A stretch of DNA of 41,961 nt. It comes from Bartonella tribocorum (lineage in GTDB: Bacteria; Pseudomonadota; Alphaproteobacteria; Rhizobiales; Rhizobiaceae). Positions within the stretch are counted from its first letter, which is position 1. Every line of letters starts with the position of its first letter. The notes beneath the pieces are model-generated. The model saw only the letters and a list, made by a program, of their open reading frames with translations, ran no database searches and was not told the origin of the DNA. This document shows, piece after piece, positions 4,197-27,538 of this stretch. The translations under genes were made by a program, and so were the position numbers. The stretch covers positions 16,938 to 58,898 of the forward strand of contig NZ_NJPP01000007.1 of the NCBI RefSeq assembly GCF_002778015.1, read 5' to 3'.

Positions 4197-4637
4197 ATGA
4201 CAGAAGTAAAACCTTTTAAGAGCGATCATAAAAATGCTTTTCATAATTTTCAGGTGCGCGTTTATGTGGCTGATACAGATTTTTCCGGTGTGGTTTATCA
4301 TGCGCGTTATCTGGAATTTTTTGAACGGGGGCGGTCAGAGTTTTTACGGGATACCGGTTTTAATAATAAGATGTTAGCAGCAGGGTCTGAGGGGGAAAAA
4401 CTTTTTTTTGTTGTGCGCCATATGGAAATTAGTTTTTTGCGACCAGCCAAAATTGATCATCTTTTAGTTGTTAAAACACGTGTTGATCATATCCAAGGAG
4501 CACGCTTTTTTATGGAGCAAGCTATTGTGCATGAGGCGACTACGTTGGTTACAGCGAAAGTTGAAATTGCTCTGATTAATGAGGAGGCAAAACCACGACG
4601 TTTACCCAAAGAGCTTTTTGCAAAAATGCTTGCTTAA
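4197..4637 (+). CDS. ybgC: YbgC-type acyl-CoA thioesterase (hotdog fold)
   Basis: This is a 146-residue 4-hydroxybenzoyl-CoA-thioesterase-like protein that hydrolyses acyl-CoA in the cytoplasm and is classically encoded beside tolQ. The signature is DTDFSGVVYHARYLEFFERG, where the second Asp is the expected catalytic residue and the Tyr-His pair follows. The remaining hotdog strands (FFVVRHMEISFLRPA, ARFFMEQAI) are recognisable. An earlier in-frame ATG lies at 4188, but GGGA at 4183-4186 is better spaced for 4197. Unusually, about 1.2 kb of non-coding sequence separates it from tolQ, whereas in many proteobacteria the genes are adjacent. Confidence 0.93.
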   Translation: MTEVKPFKSDHKNAFHNFQVRVYVADTDFSGVVYHARYLEFFERGRSEFLRDTGFNNKMLAAGSEGEKLFFVVRHMEISFLRPAKIDHLLVVKTRVDHIQGARFFMEQAIVHEATTLVTAKVEIALINEEAKPRRLPKELFAKMLA

Positions 4638-5808
4638 AACTGTTGTGCATTGAATCTATAATATATTAATTTATAAAAAAATAGAGCGTTCTTCAATTTG
4701 GATGCGAACTTTGGGTGTCGTTAAATTTTCTTATTTCAAATCTTTTCTATGTCGAAATAATGATTTTGAAACAATTAAAGTCATTCGCTTATACATTTAT
4801 AAGAGAGTAGTATATAAGTCATTGAAAAATATGTAATAATTTATGTATCCTCTTTAATGCTATCGTGGTTAAAGATCGCACGTGAGCCAATAGAATGAAG
4901 GGGTGGTTTTTATAAAGTCAAAGAGGATGAAAAGGCTTTTTGCATGCCATGGAAGCTTTGAGGCTATACAATGGTGTGATAGCAGACGATGCCCATTGAA
5001 AGGGGCTATAGCACAAGCTAATTCATAGAATAACGAGATTGCATGAGATTTACACGCGATTATAGAAGACTTATGTGGGAACATGAGCGAGGGACGTGGG
5101 GTGCGGGACATTGGACGAGGGGCATGGGGTGCGGCATTCTATGGTGGTTTATTTTTGGTTTTTTTGTGTGTCTGAGGGGCAATGCTGTTAAACTTAAGGA
5201 AAAATGAGAGAAATAATAACCTGAGAACAATGCATAATCTTTCATGATGGACTTCTATTGATTGATCATGATCATTCATGGCATTGTCACTTTTAAAGAA
5301 GGCTTGTGAGACTTTCTTTTTTCAAGCTTTTTTATGAATTCACCAAAATTATTTTCCTGCCTGTCACATTTTTTACCTGCTACATTTTTAACCTGTTACT
5401 GGTGGGGTTGGTGAGTGGAGACAAAACTGTGGGGAAGAAATAAAATTGCCTTTTATAAAGCTGGAGAGTTATCGCAAACATTTTGGGCTGGGAATGCGCA
5501 TGAGGGTCTAGCGTTTTTTCATAAATGTAAAGATGGGATGTATAATAGATTTTATATCATGCTTTATGTTATTTATGGAGGGGAGGTTTTATGGTTATTT
5601 TTTATAAATATGCCGTTGTGAAATGGGGATGAGGTGTATTGAGAGGTGCTTCTTATGATCACTTTTTAAAGAAATTAAAAAAACAGGTCTTGTTTTAGCC
5701 CATGAATTTATGTGACACTGAAGTTTTTTATTTAGATTTAGAAACTATAAAATAATCTGTTTTATAAAGTTTTAATCAAGGCACCTTTCATTTAGAGGGA
5801 CAAAAATT
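4638..5808. other. Non-coding region between ybgC and tolQ
   Basis: The small ORFs here (for example 4869-5111 minus and 5415-5621 plus) have no motif, no convincing ribosome-binding site and skewed composition, so I do not call them. Two imperfect short repeats occur: a G-rich duplication at about 5094-5136 (ggggtgcgg motif twice) and three degenerate cctgNNacattttt-like units at about 5357-5400. The tolQ promoter is expected in the A/T-rich last 100 bp. The gap interrupts the usual ybgC-tolQ linkage. Confidence 0.5.
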
Positions 5809-13732: not shown

Positions 13733-15265
13733 ATGCGTCGTAAAATGAATTGGAAAACACTCTTTTATATGGCGGTTTTCATCGCTTGTTCTACTTCATT
13801 TGCTGAAAGTATGGCACGAAAGACTTCTGAATATCCAGCACATGATACGGATAAAGTTGATGCTGCTGATAAAGCTGCGTCCGATGTTGTGGAAAAAGCA
13901 CCTGATGCTGCCGATAAGGCGGCTTCCGATGTGGTGGAGAAAGCCACAGATGCTGCCGATAAAGCGGCTTCCGATGTGGTGGAGAAAGCCACAGATGCTG
14001 CTGATAAGGCTGCGTCCGATGTGGTGGAGAAAGCCACAGATGCTGCTGATAAGGCGGCGTCCGGTGCGGAGAAGAGTGCCACTGATGCTGCCGATAAGGC
14101 GGCTTCTGATGCAGTGGAAAAAGCACCTGATGCTGCTGATAAGGCTGCGTCCGATGCAGTTGTGGTGGAGAAAGCCACAGATGCTGCTGATAAGGCTGCG
14201 CCCGATGTGGTGGAGAAAGCCACAGATGCTGCTGATAAGGCGGCGTCCGGTGCGGAGAAGAGTGCCACTGATGCTGCCGATAAGGCGGCTTCTGATGCAG
14301 TGGAAAAAGCACCTGATGCTGCGGATAAAGCTGCGTCTGATGTTATGGAAAAAGCCACAGATGCTGCTGATAAGGCTGCGTCCGATGTGGTGGAGAAAGC
14401 CACAGATGCTGCTGATAAAGCTGCGTCTGATGCGGTGGAGAAAGTCACTGAGGCTGTTGATAAGGCTGCGTCTGATGCGGTGGAGAAAGCCACTGATGTT
14501 GCTGATAAAGCTGCGTCCGAGAAGATAGAGAAAGCTTCGGATACTGCGGAGCATAAAGGGATTATTTTGGAAAATCAGCAAGTCTTATTTAAAGATTATG
14601 ATTTAGATAAGCTTTTACATAAGATCCGGATGGTGCTTGAACATAACAATTTGAAAAATGTTCAAAAGCAATTTCACCGGCTTTTTGATAAAAAAGATTC
14701 TTCTGTTTATTCTTGTTCCTTTGAAAATGCCGCTTTGGATGAAAAGTCTCAGAGTGTAAAAGAAGAAATGGTGCAGGAGCTTAACGCAGGTGATCAGACG
14801 AAAATTGCTGATGTGAAAGATCATGATACGGAGCAAACGGGGGATCATTTAAAAAAAGCGCATGAGGTAAGTGCCCGTAGTGAAGCACATCAGAGTAATC
14901 CCCTTTCTTCTGCTAAAGCTTTGTATAAGGAAGGTTATGATTTTATTCGTTCTGCCAACTATGTTGATGCTGAAAAAAGCTTTTGTGCTTTTCAAAATCG
15001 TTACAAAAAAGATCCTTTGAATGATGATGCTTTGTTTTGGTTGGCTGAATCTTTGTTGGGACAAAAACGCTATCATGAAGCAGCACAGGTTTATCTCACT
15101 GCATGGTATGCCGATAAAAAGAAGCTCTATACCTCTGAGATTTTGCTAAAATTAGCAAGAAGTATGATTGCTCTTGAGAAAAATGAAAAGGATTGCGCTC
15201 TTTTTGCAAAGAACTCAAAACATCATCAAATGTTAGAGTCTGTTTTTTGTAAACCCACAAAATAA
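13733..15265 (+). CDS. cpoB: Tol-Pal coordinator CpoB/YbgF with expanded repeat domain
   Basis: CpoB (YbgF) is a periplasmic TPR protein that coordinates peptidoglycan synthesis with Tol-Pal constriction. A signal peptide (about 1-24, ending TSFA) is followed by about 15 copies of a 15-residue unit (DAADKAASDVVEKAT), residues 43-270. The C-terminal TPR region begins around SSAKALYKEGYDFIRSANYVDA and contains FWLAESLLGQKRYHEAAQVYLTAWY. At 510 residues it is much longer than usual (about 250-350) because of the repeats. GGGGAG precedes the ATG, and tilS begins 18 bp after the stop. The Ala/Lys/Asp heptad-like pattern suggests an elongated helical or coiled-coil domain (inference). Confidence 0.88.
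   Translation: MRRKMNWKTLFYMAVFIACSTSFAESMARKTSEYPAHDTDKVDAADKAASDVVEKAPDAADKAASDVVEKATDAADKAASDVVEKATDAADKAASDVVEKATDAADKAASGAEKSATDAADKAASDAVEKAPDAADKAASDAVVVEKATDAADKAAPDVVEKATDAADKAASGAEKSATDAADKAASDAVEKAPDAADKAASDVMEKATDAADKAASDVVEKATDAADKAASDAVEKVTEAVDKAASDAVEKATDVADKAASEKIEKASDTAEHKGIILENQQVLFKDYDLDKLLHKIRMVLEHNNLKNVQKQFHRLFDKKDSSVYSCSFENAALDEKSQSVKEEMVQELNAGDQTKIADVKDHDTEQTGDHLKKAHEVSARSEAHQSNPLSSAKALYKEGYDFIRSANYVDAEKSFCAFQNRYKKDPLNDDALFWLAESLLGQKRYHEAAQVYLTAWYADKKKLYTSEILLKLARSMIALEKNEKDCALFAKNSKHHQMLESVFCKPTK
13859..14542 (+). repeat. 45-bp tandem repeat array in cpoB
   Basis: About 15 units of 45 bp encode DAADKAASDVVEKAT and variants (SGAEKSAT, SDAVEKAP, SDAVVVEKAT). A higher-order duplication is visible: the block from about 14029 to 14145 is repeated nearly identically at about 14209-14325. 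All length changes are multiples of three. The array leaves long open frames on the opposite strand too; these are artefacts of the repeat. Confidence 0.95.
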
Positions 15266-15283
15266 GCAGCGAGGTCGTTTTTG

Positions 15284-16951
15284 GTGTATGTTAGACTGGC
15301 AAAAAATCTCTTTAAAACATCGGATTTTGTTCGCTGTCGAAAAGTGATTCTTGCCGTATCAGGGGGGAGTGATTCTTTGGCTTTGATGTTTTTGGTCAAA
15401 GAGTATTTCGAAACGCTCTCAATTCCTCCGGAAATGATTGTTGTTACTGTTGATCATCAATTGCGTAAAGAATCCGCGCGTGAAGCAGAAACTGTTGCGG
15501 AAATTTGTCGTACCCATCATATTAAACATATTACTGTGCGGTGGGAAGGCAAAAAACCAAAGACGCATCTTGCTTCCAGTGCTCGTGTTGCACGCTATGA
15601 TCTCTTGGTTAAAGAAGCCAAAAAACAAGGCGCATCCCTTATTATGACGGGTCATACCCTCAATGATCAGATTGAGACCTATCATATGCGGTATCAACGT
15701 CTCCAAAAGAGTAGAAGTGCGTTGCACGATGACGTTGATGCTGTACATGAGGGTGTTCCTGCGGGCGGTTTTGCTGGTGCGTTGCACGGTGACGTTTCTG
15801 CTATGCGTGAGGGTGTTCCTGCGGGCGATTTTGCTGGTGCGTTGCACGGTGACGTTGATGCTGTGCGTGAGGGTGTTCCTGCGGGCGGTTTTGCTGGTGC
15901 GTTGCACGGTGACGTTTCTGCTATGCGTGAGGGTGTTCCTGCGGGCGGTTTTGCTGAACCGTTGCATGGTGAAGCTGGTGCTATGCGTGATGAATCTTAT
16001 GCCAAAGAAACGAGAAAAAATATTGCTGAAAAAAACGATGGAGTCCTCTATGAGCGTGGTTTATCCTGTATTCCGCGTGAAGCTTTATTGCATAGAAAAG
16101 TACGTTTGATTCGGCCACTCCTTGGTGTAAAACGCCAAACATTACGGAATTATTTACGCTTACAAGGAAAAACATGGATTGATGATCCAACCAATGAAGA
16201 TCGCAATTTTGAACGTGTGCGTGTGCGCCAATCTCTTTCTGCGAAAAAGCTTGTCGATATTGCTAAAAAAATAAATAAAGCCGCATGGCAGCGTCGTCAA
16301 CAAGCACAAAATATTGCCGATTTGATCTTAGCTCTGGATATTACAGTTCAATATGGGCGTTGTTTTATTGTGAAACCTTCTCCATTTTTACAGAAACATT
16401 CTTGTTTTCCTTTTGTTGTAGGGCTCTTTGCAGTGTTGATGGGAGGGGGATTTTATTTGCTTTCCAATCAAAAATTAAGCACGCTTGTTCAAAAACTCTG
16501 TCTTAATTCTCCAGAAAAGAAGCGTTTTACTTGTGCTGGCTGTGTTATTGAATATAACAAAGGGGGAATTGCTTTGTGGCGTGAAGGGCGAAATATGAAA
16601 GAGGTTCTTGTGAAACCAGATGAAACGCTTATATGGGATGGGCGCTATCACATTACAAATCATGGATCTGAGGCTATAAAGGTTGGAGCAGCAAATTTAG
16701 AACAGCTGAAATCTTTATTGCAAAACAGCGATTTTGATCTTGAAAAGCCTCATTTTCCCTCTTTACAATCGCTGCTGATGATTTCAAATGATAAAGGGTA
16801 TGATATTCCAGAGTTGATTTTTCAAGCGATTATTCATAAAAATGTTATTATCAAGCGGATTATGGCGCCTTTTGATTGGCTTTCCTCACGCGAAGATGCT
16901 GCGCTGGTAAATGTTGTGGAACCTTTTTTTAATTTTGAGGTAAAAAGATAA
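15284..16951 (+). CDS. tilS: tRNA(Ile)-lysidine synthase TilS with repeat insertion
   Basis: TilS modifies the wobble cytidine of tRNA-Ile(CAU) to lysidine, which is essential for decoding AUA. The N-terminal PP-loop motif SGGSDS is at about residues 26-31 and is followed by DHQLRKESAREAE and the GHTLNDQIET motif. The second conserved block (RPLLGVKRQTLRNYL, DDPTNEDRNFERVRVR) appears only after an insertion of roughly 90 residues made of 20-residue repeats. The C-terminal domain follows. The total of 555 residues is longer than typical (about 430-470). The start is GTG 15284 (or TTG 15281), after GAGG at 15271-15274. It is placed 18 bp after cpoB. Confidence 0.92.
   Translation: MYVRLAKNLFKTSDFVRCRKVILAVSGGSDSLALMFLVKEYFETLSIPPEMIVVTVDHQLRKESAREAETVAEICRTHHIKHITVRWEGKKPKTHLASSARVARYDLLVKEAKKQGASLIMTGHTLNDQIETYHMRYQRLQKSRSALHDDVDAVHEGVPAGGFAGALHGDVSAMREGVPAGDFAGALHGDVDAVREGVPAGGFAGALHGDVSAMREGVPAGGFAEPLHGEAGAMRDESYAKETRKNIAEKNDGVLYERGLSCIPREALLHRKVRLIRPLLGVKRQTLRNYLRLQGKTWIDDPTNEDRNFERVRVRQSLSAKKLVDIAKKINKAAWQRRQQAQNIADLILALDITVQYGRCFIVKPSPFLQKHSCFPFVVGLFAVLMGGGFYLLSNQKLSTLVQKLCLNSPEKKRFTCAGCVIEYNKGGIALWREGRNMKEVLVKPDETLIWDGRYHITNHGSEAIKVGAANLEQLKSLLQNSDFDLEKPHFPSLQSLLMISNDKGYDIPELIFQAIIHKNVIIKRIMAPFDWLSSREDAALVNVVEPFFNFEVKR
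15719..15991 (+). repeat. 60-bp tandem repeat inside tilS
   Basis: Four near-identical 60-bp units and a partial fifth encode ALHGDVSAMREGVPAGGFAG and variants. The units start at about 15719, 15779, 15839, 15899 and 15959. The array sits directly after the GHTLNDQIETYHMR segment of the catalytic domain. It is in frame throughout, so copy-number change would not break the gene. Confidence 0.95.
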
Positions 16952-21292: not shown

Positions 21293-22052
21293 GCTTTAAG
21301 GAATCTTGAATGCTGTACGGATAAGCGATCAGGTCATCTGTTGAAAAACAAAAGGGAGTTTTTGAAATGATTTGTTGGAGGAATGTTCATTGAAGAAAAG
21401 CGGTTGGCCTTTGGGGAATGTTTTCTATGATAATGAGGGGGGCTTAAGAGAAGGTCTGTATGTGCTAGAAGGTCTTTCTTGAGTGAGAGGTTGCAATTCT
21501 TGAGTTATAGCGGAGGAAGAGCAGGTAAGCAGCCAGTTAGAGCGGTAATCGAGCCGCTAAAGAAGCGGTTGGTGAAAGAGTTTTTGCCTTCCTGTGATGG
21601 TGGAATTTTATCCTTTGTACATTTAATATAAAGGGGGTGTATAAAAAGGGATTGGCGGTTTATATGAGTGAAAGCGATGTCGTTTTGTGGTTCCATCTTT
21701 AATTTTGTTTTGGGAACGCATTTTATTTTTTGAGCAAATTCGTATGTAAGAAAAGAAAAAATATCCCGACAATCCTTGGGGCATTGGGGAGTGTTTGTTT
21801 TTTAATATAGATTTTACCTTGACATGCTTTTTTAAAGCTATGAGTCACTTTCAAAATGAGGAAAAAACAATGGCAAAAAAAATAAAAACCCAACTGCGTT
21901 AACAGAAGGGTTTCTAAAATACCTATGCGGCGAATTAAAAATTCTAAGTAATTCTCATTTTAATTTATCGCGATATATTCTGCAAGAGAAATTTTGTAGA
22001 AAAGGAGTATTTTTTACTTTTTTTTGCCTCTGACAGAGAGGTTAAAACAATT
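21293..22052. other. Junction region between glmM and the repC island
   Basis: No clear gene is visible. Near the right end a short ATG frame at 21870 (MAKKIKTQLR, then stop) becomes a 50-codon open stretch if one A is added to the run of eight A's, ending at about 22034. This could be a decayed small gene but I do not recognise it. A TTGACA at 21819-21824 has no good -10 partner. In RepABC plasmids the stretch before repC carries an antisense RNA; I see no clear hairpin-plus-T-run to support one here. Confidence 0.4.
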
Positions 22053-23427
22053 ATGGTTAAAAAAACATTCGGAAGAAAGTTAAGTGCACATCATATAGAA
22101 TTTAGAAAATTAGCTGAAACTGCTAAAATGGGGGTTGTAAGTCGAGGACAATTAATTGGATTGGCTAGAAAATTAGAGATAGCTGGTTTTATACGAGAGA
22201 CAGAAGCAAAACTTCTCTTAGTTTTATTGAATACAGCTTCGACGTCTTCATTTGAAAAAGGTGGAGTTCCTATCGTTTTTAAAAGCAATTACTGTCTTGG
22301 TAATGAAATTTGCCGTAGTGAATCACGCGTGAGTATATTGCTTTCACGCCTTTATGATTGTGGTCTTGTTGTCATGCAGGATTCTGGTAATTTTAAACGC
22401 TATTCATCGCGAAGCCGTAGTCATGGAATTATAACAGCTTGTGGGATTGATTTACGTATTCTTGTGTCTCAATACCATGAACTTAAACAAAAAATTGATG
22501 AAGTTTTAGAGGCTCAGAGAAGACAAAAGGATGCTTTGCATTGTTTTCAGGGGTTAGTGCGACAAATTAAAGCTTCTTATGCATCAATTGAAGCGACACC
22601 ATTTACATCTTTGCTTTTTTCGAGAATGCAAAAAATCCTTCACATTATTGGTCGGCCAGCCAAAGCTTCGGTGGAAACAATTGCATAAAGCAATTGGTCT
22701 TTTTCAGTGGATTTTACAGCGTTTTTTTACGCAAAAAACATCAAAAACAAGATACACGTATTGTGCTGACAAGATACACATAGAATATACAACCCCTAAT
22801 CTAATTAGTAATTGTAACGAAAGAGAAAATTCAAACCTTAACGAAAATAACCAAAACCTAGAGACAACCGACAACTGTACAAAAAATGCTTATGAAAATA
22901 TAGAGAAAGGCAAAACTGAATCCACCTTACCTTCAAAAAACAGCAAATCGCTTCAAATCAAACCAGAACTTTTAACGCAAGCATTGCCTAATGTTGCTAT
23001 GTTTATGAAACATGGATTGCAATCTGAAAGAGATTTAATTGGGTCTATGGAGTTTTTAGCTAAAATGAAGGGGATTTCTTCTCATGCTGTTGAAGACGCT
23101 AAAAAAACTATGGGAATTAAAAAAGCTGCTCTAGCCATTGCTATCATTTTCGAAAAACATTGCAAAGAATTAATTAAATCATCTGGAGGATATTTGCGCG
23201 GCATGATTGCCAAAGAAAATCGAGGAGAGCTCTATCTAGAACGTTCTTTCTATGCCCTACTCAATGAAGCTTCTGAAGAAAAGCTGAATAATTGGTGCGG
23301 GCAAAAAACAGAGAAAAATGAGTCATCAAAATTAACAGATCAAAAAATTTCTTTATTCAAATCAGAATTAAATGAAGTTCTTAAAACTTTAAACATGCAA
23401 ACAAATTCAAAGAAAATTGCACCATAA
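22053..23427 (+). pseudogene. repC: Plasmid replication initiator RepC, frameshifted and orphan
   Basis: The first frame (22053-22688, 211 codons) matches the N-terminal domain of RepABC-type RepC: GLARKLEIAGFIRETEAKLLLVLL, then FKSNYCLGNEICRSESRVSILLSRLYDCGLV and HGIITACGIDLRILV. The second part continues in the +1 frame to 23427 with the RepC C-terminal pattern: VAMFMKHGLQSERDL, AKMKGISSHAVEDAKKTMG and SSGGYLRGMIAKENRGELYLE. The frames join near 22684-22690, where removing one base links VETIA to KAIGLFQ. No repA or repB lies upstream. It is probably a plasmid remnant in the chromosome, unless the shift is a sequencing error or programmed. Confidence 0.8.
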
Positions 23428-23670
23428 GTTTGATAAAAACTAAAAAAGGAGAAAAAATGTCTAACGAAACAGATAAAATGAAGTTCTTCTGATTGAATGG
23501 AGAAAGAGATTTACTATAACAACCCTGCGGGGGATATCATGTAGGGGTCCCTCCCTCCGAAAAAGAGATATATACAAGACATTTTCATTTAGCAATTACT
23601 TTTTTAGTTTTTTATACTTTTTAAAGAAACATGAAAAATATAAATATTTTCAGTTAATCCTTATTTTTAA

Positions 23671-23691
23671 TGAGAGGCTATCCGCCTCTCA
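23671..23691. repeat. Perfect 8-bp hairpin
   Basis: TGAGAGGC and GCCTCTCA flank the loop TATCC. It is the first of a series of hairpins downstream of repC. There is no downstream T-run, so it is not a typical terminator. Confidence 0.85.
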
Positions 23692-23747
23692 AACTCTCCG
23701 TACGCTCACCAAAATCATGAGATCAGACCCGCGTTTATCGAAGGACT

Positions 23748-23828
23748 AACAATCCTAGGTTCTTAAGGTCAAGGAAACCCCTTTGGGGCGCCTAACGGCG
23801 TCCTTGACAAAGAACCAAACGGATTGTT
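23748..23828. repeat. Long branched palindrome
   Basis: Three nested arm pairs are separated by short bulges. They are AACAATCC (23748-23755) with GGATTGTT (23821-23828), GGTTCT (23758-23763) with AGAACC (23811-23816), and GTCAAGGA (23768-23775) with TCCTTGAC (23801-23808). Inside lie two small hairpins, CCCCTTTGGGG (23778-23788) and CGCCTAACGGCG (23789-23800). The predicted shape is a long stem crowned by two stem-loops. Function is unknown: plasmid origin element, transfer origin or structured RNA are options. Confidence 0.8.
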
Positions 23829-23832
23829 TTAT

Positions 23833-23867
23833 CCTTCTCACGCGGCTCCGAAATCATGATGAGAAGG
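23833..23867. repeat. Inverted repeat beside the branched palindrome
   Basis: CCTTCTCA (23833-23840) pairs with TGAGAAGG (23860-23867) across a 19-base loop. It directly follows the 81-bp branched palindrome and seems part of the same structured block. Confidence 0.75.
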
Positions 23868-23977
23868 AGAGCTTATAGGGGCGCCTGCTTTCAGAGAGCA
23901 ATGTAAAAACAAAGGTATTAAAATTTCCATTAAACTCAATAAAACATGGAACATAATTAAAATTATAGGTGTTGGTA

Positions 23978-24127
23978 ATGCTCAATCATGATGATATCGA
24001 AAGTGTTGAATTTTATTTTACTGTAAATGGTAAAAAAATAAAATTTGATAAAGAGACTAATGATAAATTAAAGGAAAATATAGATTGGGAGAAATTTTTA
24101 TCGCAATTATTCGTTGATAAAAAATAA
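23978..24127 (+). CDS. Small hypothetical protein upstream of TIR-like gene
   Basis: A 49-codon frame begins MLNHDDIESVEFYFTVNG and ends LSQLFVDKK. It is highly charged (Lys/Asp/Glu-rich) with no membrane segment or signal peptide. Codon use is A/T-rich, as in the TIR-like gene that starts 45 bp downstream in the same direction. The ribosome-binding sequence is weak (AGGTG, about seven bases upstream). It may be an accessory or immunity partner of the TIR-like gene, or unrelated. I recognise no family. Confidence 0.45.
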   Translation: MLNHDDIESVEFYFTVNGKKIKFDKETNDKLKENIDWEKFLSQLFVDKK

Positions 24128-24172
24128 TAAGCCCTCTGGGATAAATGCATATATTTTATAGGGGATATAAAA

Positions 24173-24628
24173 ATGCCAAAAATTTTTATTGTATATAATG
24201 ATCATACTACTTTAGAACAAACTGAACGTGTTCTTTTTAAGCTTGGATTGGAACCATACGTTCTGAAATTTGGTAGTGATAATTTAACTACTATTGAGGA
24301 TTTTAAACAAGAAATTAGTATGCAAATTAATTCTCCAAAATTTGGTATTGTGCTACTTACTCCCGATGAGATTGGATATGAAAAATCTGCTGATAAAAAA
24401 GACGCAAAACCGCGCGCTAATCAAAATGTTATTTTTAAAATGGGTATGTTAATTCCTAAAATTTCTTGCAGAAATATTGCTATTTTAAAAAAACGAGATG
24501 TTGAAGTGCCTTTAGATTATGAAGGGATTAATTACATTCCTTTTAATGAACACGTAAAAGAGACGATCCAAAAACTTGTTGAACTATTAAACACAGCCGG
24601 ATTCAATTTAGATACAGTTAACTACTGA
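24173..24628 (+). CDS. TIR-like (Cap12/PF10137-type) nucleotide-binding protein, catalytic Glu replaced
   Basis: The 151-residue protein fits the CAP12/Pycsar-effector TIR family. It shows KIFIVYNDHTTLEQTERVLFKLGLEP (3-28), FGIVLLTPDEIGYEK (57-71), PRANQNVIFKMG (80-91) and DVEVPLDYEGINYIPF (109-124). Members hydrolyse NAD+ in antiphage defence when coupled to a sensor such as a STING or cyclic-nucleotide-binding domain. Here the domain stands alone. The family motif usually reads RQNVIFELG; this protein has Lys89 (AAA) where the catalytic Glu (GAA) is expected, so it may be enzymatically inactive. AGGGGAT lies about seven bases before the ATG. Neighbours are a 49-codon ORF and hipBA. Confidence 0.85.
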   Translation: MPKIFIVYNDHTTLEQTERVLFKLGLEPYVLKFGSDNLTTIEDFKQEISMQINSPKFGIVLLTPDEIGYEKSADKKDAKPRANQNVIFKMGMLIPKISCRNIAILKKRDVEVPLDYEGINYIPFNEHVKETIQKLVELLNTAGFNLDTVNY

Positions 24629-24702
24629 AGTTTTTTTTTGCATGAAGTATACGCAAAATATGCACTCTTCTTTGTTCTTCGGATAAGGCTTTAAGAGTAT
24701 AT

Positions 24703-24776
24703 GGGATAAAAACGTCCCGTACAGGTTTATTTTCTTGTAATAAAAGCATAAAATGATAAAATAATCCCGAAAGGGA
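24703..24776 (+). promoter_or_regulatory. hipBA promoter and candidate operators
   Basis: A promoter-like pair TTGTAA (24735-24740) and TAAAAT (24757-24762) is spaced by 16 bp. Two inverted repeats flank it: GGGA-N8-TCCC at 24703-24718 and TCCC-GAAA-GGGA at 24765-24776. The second overlaps the hipB ribosome-binding site. The N8 spacing recalls the TATCC-N8-GGATA operators of E. coli HipB, so autorepression is plausible, but the half-sites differ. Confidence 0.45.
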
Positions 24777-24781
24777 CGATT

Positions 24782-24997
24782 ATGATTGAAAGCAGAATGA
24801 AAATATTGGGTTTTATTGTTAGAAATACACGTAAAAAACAAGGATTAACACAAGAACAGTTAGCAGCTACATCAGGGGTTGGTGTGCGTTTTATCCGTGA
24901 TTTAGAAAGAGGCAAAGAGTCTTGTCATGTTGGAAAAACCATACATGTGCTTTCAATGCTTGGTCTTGATATTCAGATTGAAAATGAAAAATTATGA
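24782..24997 (+). CDS. hipB: HipB-like antitoxin (XRE helix-turn-helix)
   Basis: The 71-residue protein carries an XRE-type helix-turn-helix: GFIVRNTRKKQGLTQEQLAA then SGVGVRFIRDLERGK. It ends with the usual short strand LDIQIENEKL. AAAGGGA is five bases before the ATG and lies inside a palindrome. Its stop overlaps the hipA start (ATGA), so antitoxin and toxin are translationally coupled. HipB neutralises the HipA kinase and represses the operon. It is not preceded by another gene in the same operon. Confidence 0.9.
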   Translation: MIESRMKILGFIVRNTRKKQGLTQEQLAATSGVGVRFIRDLERGKESCHVGKTIHVLSMLGLDIQIENEKL

Positions 24998-26232
24998 CCC
25001 GTACACTTGATGTTTATTTACACGCAAAATTAGTAGGTCAATTACAACAACAAAAAAGTGGAGATCTCACGTTTCTCTACGATACTGATTATTTGTATAA
25101 AGATTTACAGGGCATCTCTGTCTCTCTACCTCCTCGTGTTGAAGCTTATAAAGGTCAAGCAGTAAAAGCCTTTTTTTCCGGTCTCTTACCCGATGATAAT
25201 GTAAGATATCGTTTAGCAACTTATTTAGGTCTTTCTGAACGAAATGCTTTTGCTTTGCTTGAAGTTGTTGGGGGAGATTGTGCTGGTGCTCTCGCTTTAT
25301 ATCCACATGGACAAGTTCCAAATTTGCCAACTGATGATGTAGAAACTCTTGATGATACTCAATTGAAAGAAATTCTTGAGTGTATTAAACGTCGTCCAAT
25401 GCTTGCTGGTGGAGATGGCTACAGATTGTCTCTTGCGGGTGCACAAGATAAATTAGCGGTTGGCTTTAAAGATAACCGTGTTCAACTCATTAAAGGGGGT
25501 GCACCGACCACGCATATTTTGAAACTTCTCATTGAACATATTAATGACAGTGCGCATAATGAGCTTTTTTGTATGAAATTGGCAAAACTCGTAGGTATTA
25601 ATGTGCCGGAAGTGTATTTACATTTTGTGAATAATACACCTTATTGTCTTATCACTCGATATGACCGTCAAATATCTTCTAACGGAACAATTTTGCGTAT
25701 TCATCAAGAGGATTTTTGTCAAGCACTTAGTATAGCTCCAGAATTTAAATATGAATGTGAAGGAGGACCTAGTATTGCTGCGTGTCAAACCGTTATTTTC
25801 CAGCATACATTGCGTCCTGCTGTTGATCAACTGAATTTCCTTAATATAATTATTTTTAATTATTTAATTGGTAATGCCGATGCGCATGGCAAAAACTTTT
25901 CACTACTTTACCAACAGAAAAAACCAGAACTTGCTCCTGCATATGATTTGTTAAGCACAGCTATTTATTCAGATTTATCTCAAAAAATGGCTATGAAAAT
26001 AGGAGGAGAATATATACCTAAAAATACATATTTGCGTCATTTTTATAAAATAGTCGCGGATACTAAAGCTTCTCAATTGTCCTTAAAAAAGCAAATAAAA
26101 AGAATGACTGATTCAATCAATGATAAGGCAATAAAATTAAAGAAAGAACTCGAGAGTGAAGGTTTGCGTTCTGAAGTTTTTGATGCAATCATTAATATTA
26201 TTCAACAGCGTTCTCAACATTTAAAAATTTAA
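24994..26232 (+). CDS. hipA: HipA-like serine/threonine kinase toxin
   Basis: HipA toxins phosphorylate glutamyl-tRNA synthetase and halt translation, producing dormancy. This 412-residue protein has the N-terminal HipA domain (VYLHAKLVGQLQ) and the SLAGAQDKLAVG loop (146-157), which includes the region of the regulatory autophosphorylated serine. The kinase core NYLIGNADAHGKNFSL (289-304) has the catalytic Asp296 and Mg-binding Asn301, and the Asp of AYDLL (318) is also present. All key residues look intact, and the length is near that of E. coli HipA (440). Coupled to hipB by a four-base overlap. Confidence 0.92.
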   Translation: MTRTLDVYLHAKLVGQLQQQKSGDLTFLYDTDYLYKDLQGISVSLPPRVEAYKGQAVKAFFSGLLPDDNVRYRLATYLGLSERNAFALLEVVGGDCAGALALYPHGQVPNLPTDDVETLDDTQLKEILECIKRRPMLAGGDGYRLSLAGAQDKLAVGFKDNRVQLIKGGAPTTHILKLLIEHINDSAHNELFCMKLAKLVGINVPEVYLHFVNNTPYCLITRYDRQISSNGTILRIHQEDFCQALSIAPEFKYECEGGPSIAACQTVIFQHTLRPAVDQLNFLNIIIFNYLIGNADAHGKNFSLLYQQKKPELAPAYDLLSTAIYSDLSQKMAMKIGGEYIPKNTYLRHFYKIVADTKASQLSLKKQIKRMTDSINDKAIKLKKELESEGLRSEVFDAIINIIQQRSQHLKI

Positions 26233-26340
26233 TTTTATTGCTTATCTTTCCGTTTTAAATGATGATATTTTTAATATACTGAGTAATATTATATCAGCAA
26301 AAACGATCATTTCTTCTGATGCAAAAATATATATTTATTT

Positions 26341-26391
26341 GACGTTTTTTTAAATGAAAATATATCAGTTTAAATGTAAACTGACGTTTTT
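26341..26391. promoter_or_regulatory. Inverted/direct repeats before the recombinase gene (possible res-like or operator site)
   Basis: TCAGTTTA-AATG-TAAACTGA (26365-26384) is a perfect 8-bp inverted repeat. The 9-mer gacgttttt occurs on both sides (26341-26349 and 26383-26391). The cluster lies just before the recombinase start at 26399, a common location for resolvase binding sites or autoregulatory operators. No full three-subsite res structure is demonstrated. Confidence 0.35.
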
Positions 26392-26398
26392 ACTGAAT

Positions 26399-26968
26399 AT
26401 GACAAAATTTTATGCTTACTTACGTGTTTCTCGTGATGGACAAGATACAGAAAATCAAAAATTTGGTTTGTTAGAATATGCTAACAAACATGGCTTTGCT
26501 CCACTCCATATTGAAGAAGAAATTGCAAGTAGAGGGAAAGATTGGCGCAAGCGTAAGCTTGGTGCTTTAATTGAAAAAGCAGAACGAGGAGATGTATTAT
26601 TAACTCCTGAATTTTCTCGTATAGCTGGTTCTTCTCTTGCTGTCCTAGAAATTCTCAAAGCCGCTAGTGAACGTGGTTTAATTTTTCACGTGACGAAACA
26701 AAACCTTATCATGGATGGGAGTTTACAAAGTGATATCATCGCGACTGTATTAGGTATGGTAGCGCAGATTGAGAGACATTTAATTCAAACACGTACAAAA
26801 GAAGCGTTAAGTGTTGCTCGTCAACGTGGTATAAAACGAGGACGCCCAACTGCAAATATATATAATTTGGCAAATATAATGATGAGGCCGGCTTGTTACT
26901 TCATAGATCGTGAAAACATGGGGGCGATGTGCAAGGAATTTAAGCGGATCCACAGAATTTTGAGTTAA
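26399..26968 (+). CDS. Serine recombinase (resolvase/invertase family)
   Basis: The N-terminal catalytic domain is clear: FYAYLRVSRDGQDTENQ with the nucleophilic serine at about residue 10, then RGDVLLTPEFSRIAGS, and the long E-helix GMVAQIERHLIQTRTKEAL. The start at 26399 gives the usual short N-terminus; an in-frame ATG at 26354 would add 15 hydrophobic residues. After RGIKRGRP the C-terminal helix-turn-helix expected in this family is not recognisable (it reads TANIYNLANIMMRPACYF...), so the end may have been replaced or truncated. It lies at the right edge of the island, directly before a repC-like fragment. Confidence 0.85.
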   Translation: MTKFYAYLRVSRDGQDTENQKFGLLEYANKHGFAPLHIEEEIASRGKDWRKRKLGALIEKAERGDVLLTPEFSRIAGSSLAVLEILKAASERGLIFHVTKQNLIMDGSLQSDIIATVLGMVAQIERHLIQTRTKEALSVARQRGIKRGRPTANIYNLANIMMRPACYFIDRENMGAMCKEFKRIHRILS

Positions 26969-27085: not shown

Positions 27086-27538
27086 TTACATATTTTTATT
27101 TGAAAAGCGATCTTTTTTATCTTTTTTCCACAGAAAATAAGTTGCAAGTCCCAAAATGGGGACACTCAATTTAGCAAAAGGGAGATGTTGGCTGAGAACA
27201 GCTAGGCTGGAAACAGTTGCATCTGTCATCAGTTTGTGGCGTTGTTCTTCGGTCTTTTTTTGTTGATCATAGCGTTGATAAGCCTTAAGAATCCGACTGA
27301 TCATAAGACTTAAAGCTCCAAGAAAAAACCAAATTAAAAACATGATACTGGCAGCGGTAAGAGGCTTTACAACAGTACATAACGCAAGAAAACCAACGAT
27401 ACATAAAAAAAGCAAAGCCATAAAAAATGAAATGCCAATAATCCCACAGCAAATGGCTTGAAGGCGCACTTGCTTGACTGTGCTTTTAAGCCCTCCACCG
27501 ACAAGATGGTTTAAAAGAGGTGCGATAAACTTATGCAT
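27086..27538 (-). CDS. YqjE/holin-X-like small inner-membrane protein
   Basis: The 150-residue protein begins MHKFIAPLLNHLVGG and has two adjacent strong hydrophobic segments, at about 30-55 (CCGIIGISFFMALLFLCIVGF) and 60-85 (AASIMFLIWFFLGALSLMI). A charged helix and a third weaker hydrophobic stretch (KLSVPILGLATYFLW) follow. This matches small YqjE-like (holin superfamily III-like) proteins that are commonly paired with a DUF883 protein. It starts three bases after the upstream DUF883 gene. Function is unknown beyond membrane association. Confidence 0.7.
   Translation of the reverse strand: MHKFIAPLLNHLVGGGLKSTVKQVRLQAICCGIIGISFFMALLFLCIVGFLALCTVVKPLTAASIMFLIWFFLGALSLMISRILKAYQRYDQQKKTEEQRHKLMTDATVSSLAVLSQHLPFAKLSVPILGLATYFLWKKDKKDRFSNKNM

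Follow-up and report, generated by a model that had tools for sequence, protein, structure and literature searches.

The stretch of DNA analysed here, called the window in the following, comprises 41,961 nucleotides (nt) of Bartonella tribocorum (assembly GCF_002778015.1, contig NZ_NJPP01000007.1, positions 16,938 to 58,898; contig C67 of genome G000 in our numbering) and, judged by gene content, belongs to the chromosome. The gene at 24173-24628 on the + strand encodes a protein of 151 amino acids (aa) with a PF10137 TIR domain, which carries a lysine where the catalytic glutamate is expected. The comparisons indicate that this protein is a stand-alone, truncated offshoot of the family PDC-S35 and not of the Cap12 type, and that the stand-alone TIR lineage has lost its catalytic residues once and shows moderate purifying selection. 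As the catalytic centre is lost while the gene, beside its small neighbour, still bears marks of selection for its retention, the protein may act by binding and not as an enzyme. We give a probability of roughly one in three (0.35) to the reading that it is a TIR pseudoenzyme acting by protein-protein contact, possibly by blocking full-length TIR relatives.

The two open reading frames (ORFs) in question, one of 49 codons at 23978-24127 and the TIR gene behind it, are present as given in a preliminary description of this DNA. The TIR protein had been assigned there to the Cap12 type. It matches PF10137 (CAP12/Pycsar effector TIR domain) with 78.6 bits (cut-off 24.7, E 4.9e-22) over residues 3-125 and profile positions 1-118 of 119; it has the TIR-like fold of this family and consists of the TIR domain almost throughout. 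The assignment to Cap12 could not be upheld: with the NCBIfam Cap12 equivalog cut-off at 450 bits, the protein reaches 31.4 and 24.1, and the closest family by profile score is PDC-S35 of PADLOC with 184 bits (profile 90-237 of 245). PDC-S35 proteins consist of an N-terminal domain and a TIR domain, about 250 aa together; since the profile match starts at 90, the N-terminal domain (profile about 1-90) is absent from the window protein. Its TIR part is 46-58% identical to the full-length-type matches from Bartonella (fragments left out). A scan of seven proteins between 22.0 and 27.0 kb of the window gave no STING, sensor or cyclase (CD-NTase) domain, in agreement with the earlier statement that no STING or sensor domain lies beside the protein. 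Six intact DNA copies of the stand-alone gene, with 86-100% protein identity to the window, argue that the gene is not a matter of chance.

Lys89 is encoded by AAA (24437-24439). In the alignment to the Cap12/SfSTING chain 7un8_A (E 0.011, weak; profile search E 1.5e-4) it stands opposite the Glu of NVVFEFG, as had been described. This placement rests on sequence alignments together with a fold match, and the confidence of the structure model is low in parts (61 in the block of residues 31-40, 57 in the block 71-80, below 50 for residues 68-71). Passages of PMC9402430 describe E84 of SfSTING as the catalytic residue and R78, N80 and S10 as polar pocket residues, with R78 and N80 coordinating the phosphodiester and the ribose and D110 of the opposite protomer completing the active site in trans. 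Counted by hand along the 7un8_A alignment, R78, N80, E84 and D110 correspond to R81, N85, K89 and D115 of the window protein; the last of these (GAT, 24515-24517) is retained.

For comparison with the family we used an alignment of 77 rows, consisting of the window protein, five other stand-alone proteins and 71 longer relatives (76 of 92 database hits). The catalytic column holds Glu in 71/71 longer relatives; the six stand-alone rows, window included, have Lys (five) or Arg (one). Among all 92 hits, nine stand-alone Bartonella clusters carry Lys in eight cases, Arg in one and Glu in none. The other 83 hits have Glu in 82 (76 read by pattern, P0040 and P0092 by eye, and P0055, P0066, P0068 and P0090 by alignment) and Ala in one, P0091. 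With Lys or Arg common to the stand-alone orthologues, Lys89 is not a recent error; orthologues that all carry Glu, which the preliminary description had taken as a sign of recent loss or of a mistake in the sequence, did not occur. The protein thus lacks the catalytic Glu of TIR NADases and is, as far as its sequence tells, a pseudoenzyme.

The exchange of Glu for Lys is real, but as an account of the loss it was incomplete, since the HGHD loop is lost as well. In the 71 longer relatives the first His of this loop is found in 68, and the Gly and the second His in all; in the window protein residues 8-11 (24194-24205) read YNDH instead, with the Gly deleted. Of 71 positions at which 90% or more of the longer relatives agree, 17 are changed in the stand-alone proteins, including both His of the HGHD loop, G37, E45, R83, E89 and R99; the deleted Gly comes on top of these. 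The changes are denser in the N-terminal half (10/23) than in the C-terminal half (7/48; p 0.015). R81, N85 and D115 are kept in 6/6 stand-alone rows. Hydrophobic residues are also kept where SfSTING has its alpha-C interface, with M90 in 6/6 rows and Met at position 92 in the six aligned rows; the copies of genome G011 and plasmid pTT0105 have Ile at position 92.

In a maximum-likelihood tree of 49 rows (row P0048 was left out) the six stand-alone proteins form one clade with a support of 100/100. This clade groups with 21 full-length rows from Bartonella and with row P0032, apart from the other 21 rows. Its stem of 0.57 is the longest branch of the tree, and its tips measure at most 0.07. 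For seven DNA copies of the clade, the ratio of nonsynonymous to synonymous substitution rates (dN/dS) is 0.40 under GY+F3X4, and setting the ratio to 1 under F3X4 led to a likelihood drop of 5.01 (tree and kappa fixed; p 0.0015). This set includes the copy of pTT0105 with its stop masked, but neither the G032 and G081 copies with their frameshifts nor the G024 fragment. For 22 full-length-type TIR segments from Bartonella, some of them from genes frameshifted elsewhere, dN/dS is 0.47; the values for the neighbouring hipA and hipB are 0.14 and 0.13.

By sequence, the lineage arose a single time, in the Bartonella part of the tree: a protein of the PDC-S35 type, with a small N-terminal domain and a PF10137 TIR domain, lost its N-terminal domain, its HGHD loop and its catalytic Glu. 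The stand-alone TIR became a component of conjugative plasmids of the pBGR3/pTT0105 type, usually with the 49-codon ORF in front. As the alpha-C face has kept hydrophobic residues and the in-trans Asp is present, an assembly with active full-length TIR proteins is plausible. By joining them, the stand-alone TIR could poison their NADase assemblies or, which is less likely, license them. Its natural targets would be the full-length PDC-S35 relatives, and blocking them would protect an incoming plasmid from the TIR defence of the recipient. The gene is encoded on mobile elements, the conjugative plasmids pTT0105 and pBGR3, as would be expected of an anti-defence factor. A more elaborate version seems to us tentative and somewhat doubtful: conjugative Bartonella plasmids would have turned a TIR defence protein of the host into a decoy that is catalytically dead and lacks the N-terminal domain. 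This decoy would enter TIR assemblies by way of the retained dimer face and the in-trans Asp and, with the 49-residue partner, shut off or gate the PDC-S35-type defence of the chromosome while the plasmid becomes established.

The retained R81 and N85, which correspond to the pocket residues R78 and N80 of SfSTING, would also suit a sponge or sensor that binds NAD+ or an ADP-ribose product uncleaved and either sequesters the ligand or signals to hipBA or plasmid functions. The loss of the HGHD loop and of G37 should disturb such a pocket, however, and the linkage to hipBA is not obligate, so that we regard ligand binding of this kind as rather unlikely.

Whether full-length targets are at hand was followed in 71 Bartonella genomes. 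Full-length PDC-S35 relatives form one long open frame in 20/71 and are broken in 9 more, a copy being called intact if its open frame has at least 240 codons; G081 and G092 were judged from the match table alone, and G010 and G094 have a long frame yet no match of the N-terminal domain to P0014. This N-terminal domain is predicted to adopt an alpha-beta4-alpha arrangement. Pfam gives weak hints (RnlA_toxin with 20.0 bits against 27 in P0045, DUF3378 with 15.3 against 27 in P0008), and in structure searches with the full-length model the best rows are TIR proteins, with the VIA rows spanning residues 100-253 and hardly covering the N-terminal domain. The domain might be TBP-like. The genome of the window has another PF10137 gene, which belongs to the full-length PDC-S35 type and has HGHD and Glu, at 5039-5775 of locus L051 (13,038-13,774 of contig C67).

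Several observations weigh against a binding protein that blocks such relatives. The full-length relative in the window's own genome is frameshifted where the N-terminal domain joins the TIR domain. Among the five genomes with an intact stand-alone TIR, the full-length gene is intact in one (G001) and frameshifted in three (the window's, G011 and G034); in G065 it is absent except for a match of 27 residues. With the full-length gene mostly broken or absent beside an intact stand-alone gene, a resident target is therefore not generally present. Residues 33-40, the BB loop by position, which is needed for NADase function in SfSTING, are changed. PDC-S35, in which we take PDC to stand for phage-defence candidate, is itself only a candidate defence family. 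Over the same seven copies dN/dS rises to 0.54 under the simpler F1X4 (the comparison with a ratio of 1 was run under F3X4 alone), and pairs within the group of window, G001, G011, pBGR3 and pTT0105 give 0.70-1.42 where defined. Finally, 4/10 DNA copies of the TIR gene are damaged, by a premature stop in pTT0105, frameshifts in G032 and G081, and reduction to a fragment in G024; part of the population is therefore losing the gene.

A full-length-type copy of any kind occurs in 4/5 genomes with an intact stand-alone gene and in 25/66 others (p 0.15), and an intact one in 1/5 and 19/66 (p 1.0), which is no enrichment. Broken copies are found in 3/5 and 6/66 (p 0.013), a comparison made post hoc among related genomes. 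This excess speaks plainly neither for nor against a decoy: the integrated copy could have outlived its target, or the decoy idea could be wrong.

The damaged copies, the dN/dS values of the near group and under F1X4, the shortened protein clusters P0005, P0006, P0007, P0021 and P0070, and the decay of the carrier plasmid piece itself are what slow decay would leave, that is, a defunct defence effector riding on a plasmid without present function. We think that such decay deserves serious weight, if as a minority view. It is less easily reconciled with the clade value of 0.40 under F3X4, which lies below 1, and with 0.30 between G034 and G065. Pairs across from the near group to these two genomes give 0.34-0.48; with high values within the near group and low ones across, constraint is therefore moderate and lies mainly on the deeper branches. 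Nor does decay account well for a Lys or Arg common to nine clusters, for a long stem followed by short tips, for four clusters (151-159 aa) that together comprise 37 member sequences, or for the 49-codon ORF and its spacing, kept in six copies. The protein clusters P0001, P0003 and P0004 comprise 36 member sequences. The TIR gene is intact in 6/10 DNA copies (window, G001, G011, G034, G065 and pBGR3). The preliminary description had offered a dead effector, a dominant-negative or decoy TIR, and a non-enzymatic binding protein. Of these, a binding protein or a dominant-negative or decoy fits better than a dead effector, because dN/dS is below 1 and because the in-trans residue and the alpha-C hydrophobics are kept.

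The 49-codon ORF (23978-24127, + strand) starts with ATG; a GTG at 23969 is likewise open. It is a conserved neighbour gene without known family, annotated as a coding sequence in pTT0105 and pBGR3, and its product has no match in Pfam, PADLOC, NCBIfam or PHROGs. The 45 nt between both genes (24128-24172, + strand) are constant in length in the six copies mentioned and contain a Shine-Dalgarno-like AGGGG (24160-24164) 8 nt before the TIR start. Among the 71 genomes the small ORF occurs in five: G000 (the window's genome), G001, G011 and G034 have it intact, and G032 has a broken copy. It always lies just upstream of the TIR gene and was never found without it. It has the same position in both plasmids, and is intact beside 6/10 TIR copies. 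The co-occurrence on which the preliminary description had made the link depend is thus found beside most TIR copies. A search of protein databases returned three clusters with 15 member sequences, one of them from Bartonella birtlesii. The small ORF was not detected beside the TIR gene in G065, G081 and G024, where a strongly diverged copy could be missed. As a separate observation, in G065 (B. doshiae) no small ORF was detected in the region upstream of the intact TIR gene (4600-5000 of locus L023). By eye, the sequence before this gene resembles the end of an IS200/IS605-type TnpB, which would fit a removal of the small ORF by an insertion.

For the small ORF dN/dS is 0.36, which is not distinguishable from 1 (p 0.13). 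Helix and strand look alike by eye to the N-terminal domain of the full-length family, and a split-off origin from this domain was considered and rejected: hhalign scored 10.4, a value that 69/200 column shuffles reached, and the 1.0-1.7 bits of hmmsearch were exceeded by at least 12 of 1000 shuffles. As the alignment of the small ORF is shallow (four rows), a remote link is undetected rather than excluded. From co-occurrence, the product is a possible partner or regulator of the TIR protein. The tight arrangement of two genes with the small one first recalls a toxin-antitoxin pair for plasmid maintenance, in which the small ORF neutralises the TIR protein or vice versa, and the related plasmid pVbh is portrayed in parts of PMC5675462 as a mobile parasite rich in toxin-antitoxin modules, with four orphan antitoxins. 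The presumed toxin, however, has no catalytic residues, and strict pairing fails, as G065 has an intact TIR gene without a detected small ORF and pTT0105 an intact small ORF beside a truncated TIR gene. We hold such a pair to be very unlikely.

Discussion of bacterial TIR domains usually centres on NADases with a killing or signalling role, while in animal adaptor proteins the TIR fold is kept for binding alone. If the proposed binding function is true, such a pseudoenzyme, naturally conserved on a conjugative plasmid, would mean that TIR folds can be retained for binding alone in bacteria as well; if the decoy is true, it would be an anti-defence factor built from the effector of the defence itself, and a compact, testable case of a plasmid that has made an inhibitor out of a defence effector. 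The protein also offers an entry point to the candidate defence family PDC-S35. It resembles this family in its profile and in the TIR part, and differs from it by the missing N-terminal domain, HGHD loop and catalytic Glu, by the 49-codon ORF usually beside it and by its location on plasmids. Unlike Cap12/TIR-STING (SfSTING, 7un8), it has no STING domain, no cyclase among the scanned neighbours and a Lys as the equivalent of E84. Sections of PMC11984713 describe Nip as a phage inhibitor of the TIR NADase SpbK, SH3-like and HU-like. Both would be proteins of mobile elements that act on a TIR defence protein, which is established for Nip and proposed for the window TIR; Nip is not a TIR protein, whereas the proposed inhibitor in the window would be a dead relative of its proposed target. 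The pVbh orphan antitoxins, for which an anti-addiction role is proposed (PMC5675462, in part), are similar in that, according to the proposal, a plasmid gene neutralises a related system of a different replicon, but they belong to toxin-antitoxin modules and are not TIR proteins. No paper naming PDC-S35 was found in the open-licence full text of PubMed Central, and among the listed titles and abstract openings of the same collection on inactive or pseudoenzyme bacterial TIRs and on Bartonella TIR proteins no description of this protein was recognised. The word TIR does not occur in the main texts of PMC5675462 and of the B. grahamii genome paper.

The TIR gene and the 49-codon ORF of the window sit in a decaying plasmid remnant within the chromosome. 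The segment 21794-26849 is similar to pTT0105, with 97% identity in one stretch over 22883-26849 and 75% over 21794-22403. It contains a repC remnant at 22053-23427 (+ strand; ORFs, profiles and plasmid match), whose split over two reading frames (22053-22688 and 22579-23427) identifies the segment as the remnant of a replicon. The TIR gene is followed by hipB (24782-24997) and hipA (24994-26232), a toxin-antitoxin module assigned by profiles, and by the serine recombinase of the plasmid (26354-26968, by profile), all on the + strand; the plasmid match stops inside the recombinase gene, at 26849. In G081 the remnant adjoins the same chromosomal neighbours on one side, a tolQ-like gene and the gene at 27086. 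PMC5675462 describes relatives of pVbh and pBGR3 that sit as islands in chromosomes and whose machinery is decaying.

Both pTT0105 and pBGR3 are complete, are typed as conjugative and carry the TIR unit, with the TIR gene intact in pBGR3 and truncated by the nonsense codon in pTT0105. The order is repC, small ORF, TIR, hipBA, recombinase in pTT0105 and repC, small ORF, TIR, recombinase in pBGR3. As stated in the preliminary description, hipBA follows the TIR gene in the window, and it is linked to it in 8/10 copies (hipA partial in G034, split in G024). This link is not general, as hipBA is missing in pBGR3 and in G065; it is not an obligate neighbour. The same place after repC in both complete plasmids would also agree with a housekeeping protein for replication, copy number or transfer control, which would work with the small ORF and have nothing to do with immunity. 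We consider this quite unlikely, since the scans with Pfam and NCBIfam-type profiles gave no domain for replication or partition and since the ancestry lies in a candidate defence family.

Just upstream of the 49-codon ORF, and divergent from it, lies a repeated hairpin element (23637-23886, assigned to the - strand). The element measures 220-250 nt and is strongly folded (z -7.5, folded as DNA of the + strand). Each plasmid has three copies, and 42/71 Bartonella genomes contain the element; with scoring limited to 11 candidates per genome, as many as 10 matches were counted in a single one. The element resembles an RNA of the Brt family on the opposite strand, likened by description and not by a published Brt sequence: according to parts of PMC5387305, Brt RNAs have about 200 nt, are strongly folded and multicopy in Bartonella, and have a helix-turn-helix (HTH, Trp) gene downstream on the same strand. 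An HTH-type ORF lies on the opposite strand within 900 nt of 10/19 unique copies, counting the first two ORFs on that side; for the window copy none is among the first two ORFs listed there.

A promoter in single-stranded DNA upstream of the small ORF, in the manner of Frpo, which serves leading-region anti-defence genes according to passages of PMC11541004, was considered and dropped. In the window, the + strand of the hairpin contains TTGACA-17-TTTTAT, and both boxes lie within the stem. Nine of the 19 unique copies are without the TTGACA pattern, and among the ten that have it eight show an altered -10 hexamer (TTTCGT or TTTGGT), which led us to abandon the idea. On pBGR3 two copies, at 2614-2829 and 22942-23157 (locus L063), form inverted repeats with full complementarity over 216 nt, a sign of a recent copying or recombination event inside the plasmid.

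Two minor observations concern other parts of the window. Between glmM and the repC remnant, 21931-22045 on the - strand gives a sub-threshold match to the Rfam family Ysr100 (38.9 bits, gathering 47, E 1.1e-4). Two chromosomal ORFs at 13733-15265 and 15281-16951 contain internal tandem repeats, which were spotted by eye in the translations.
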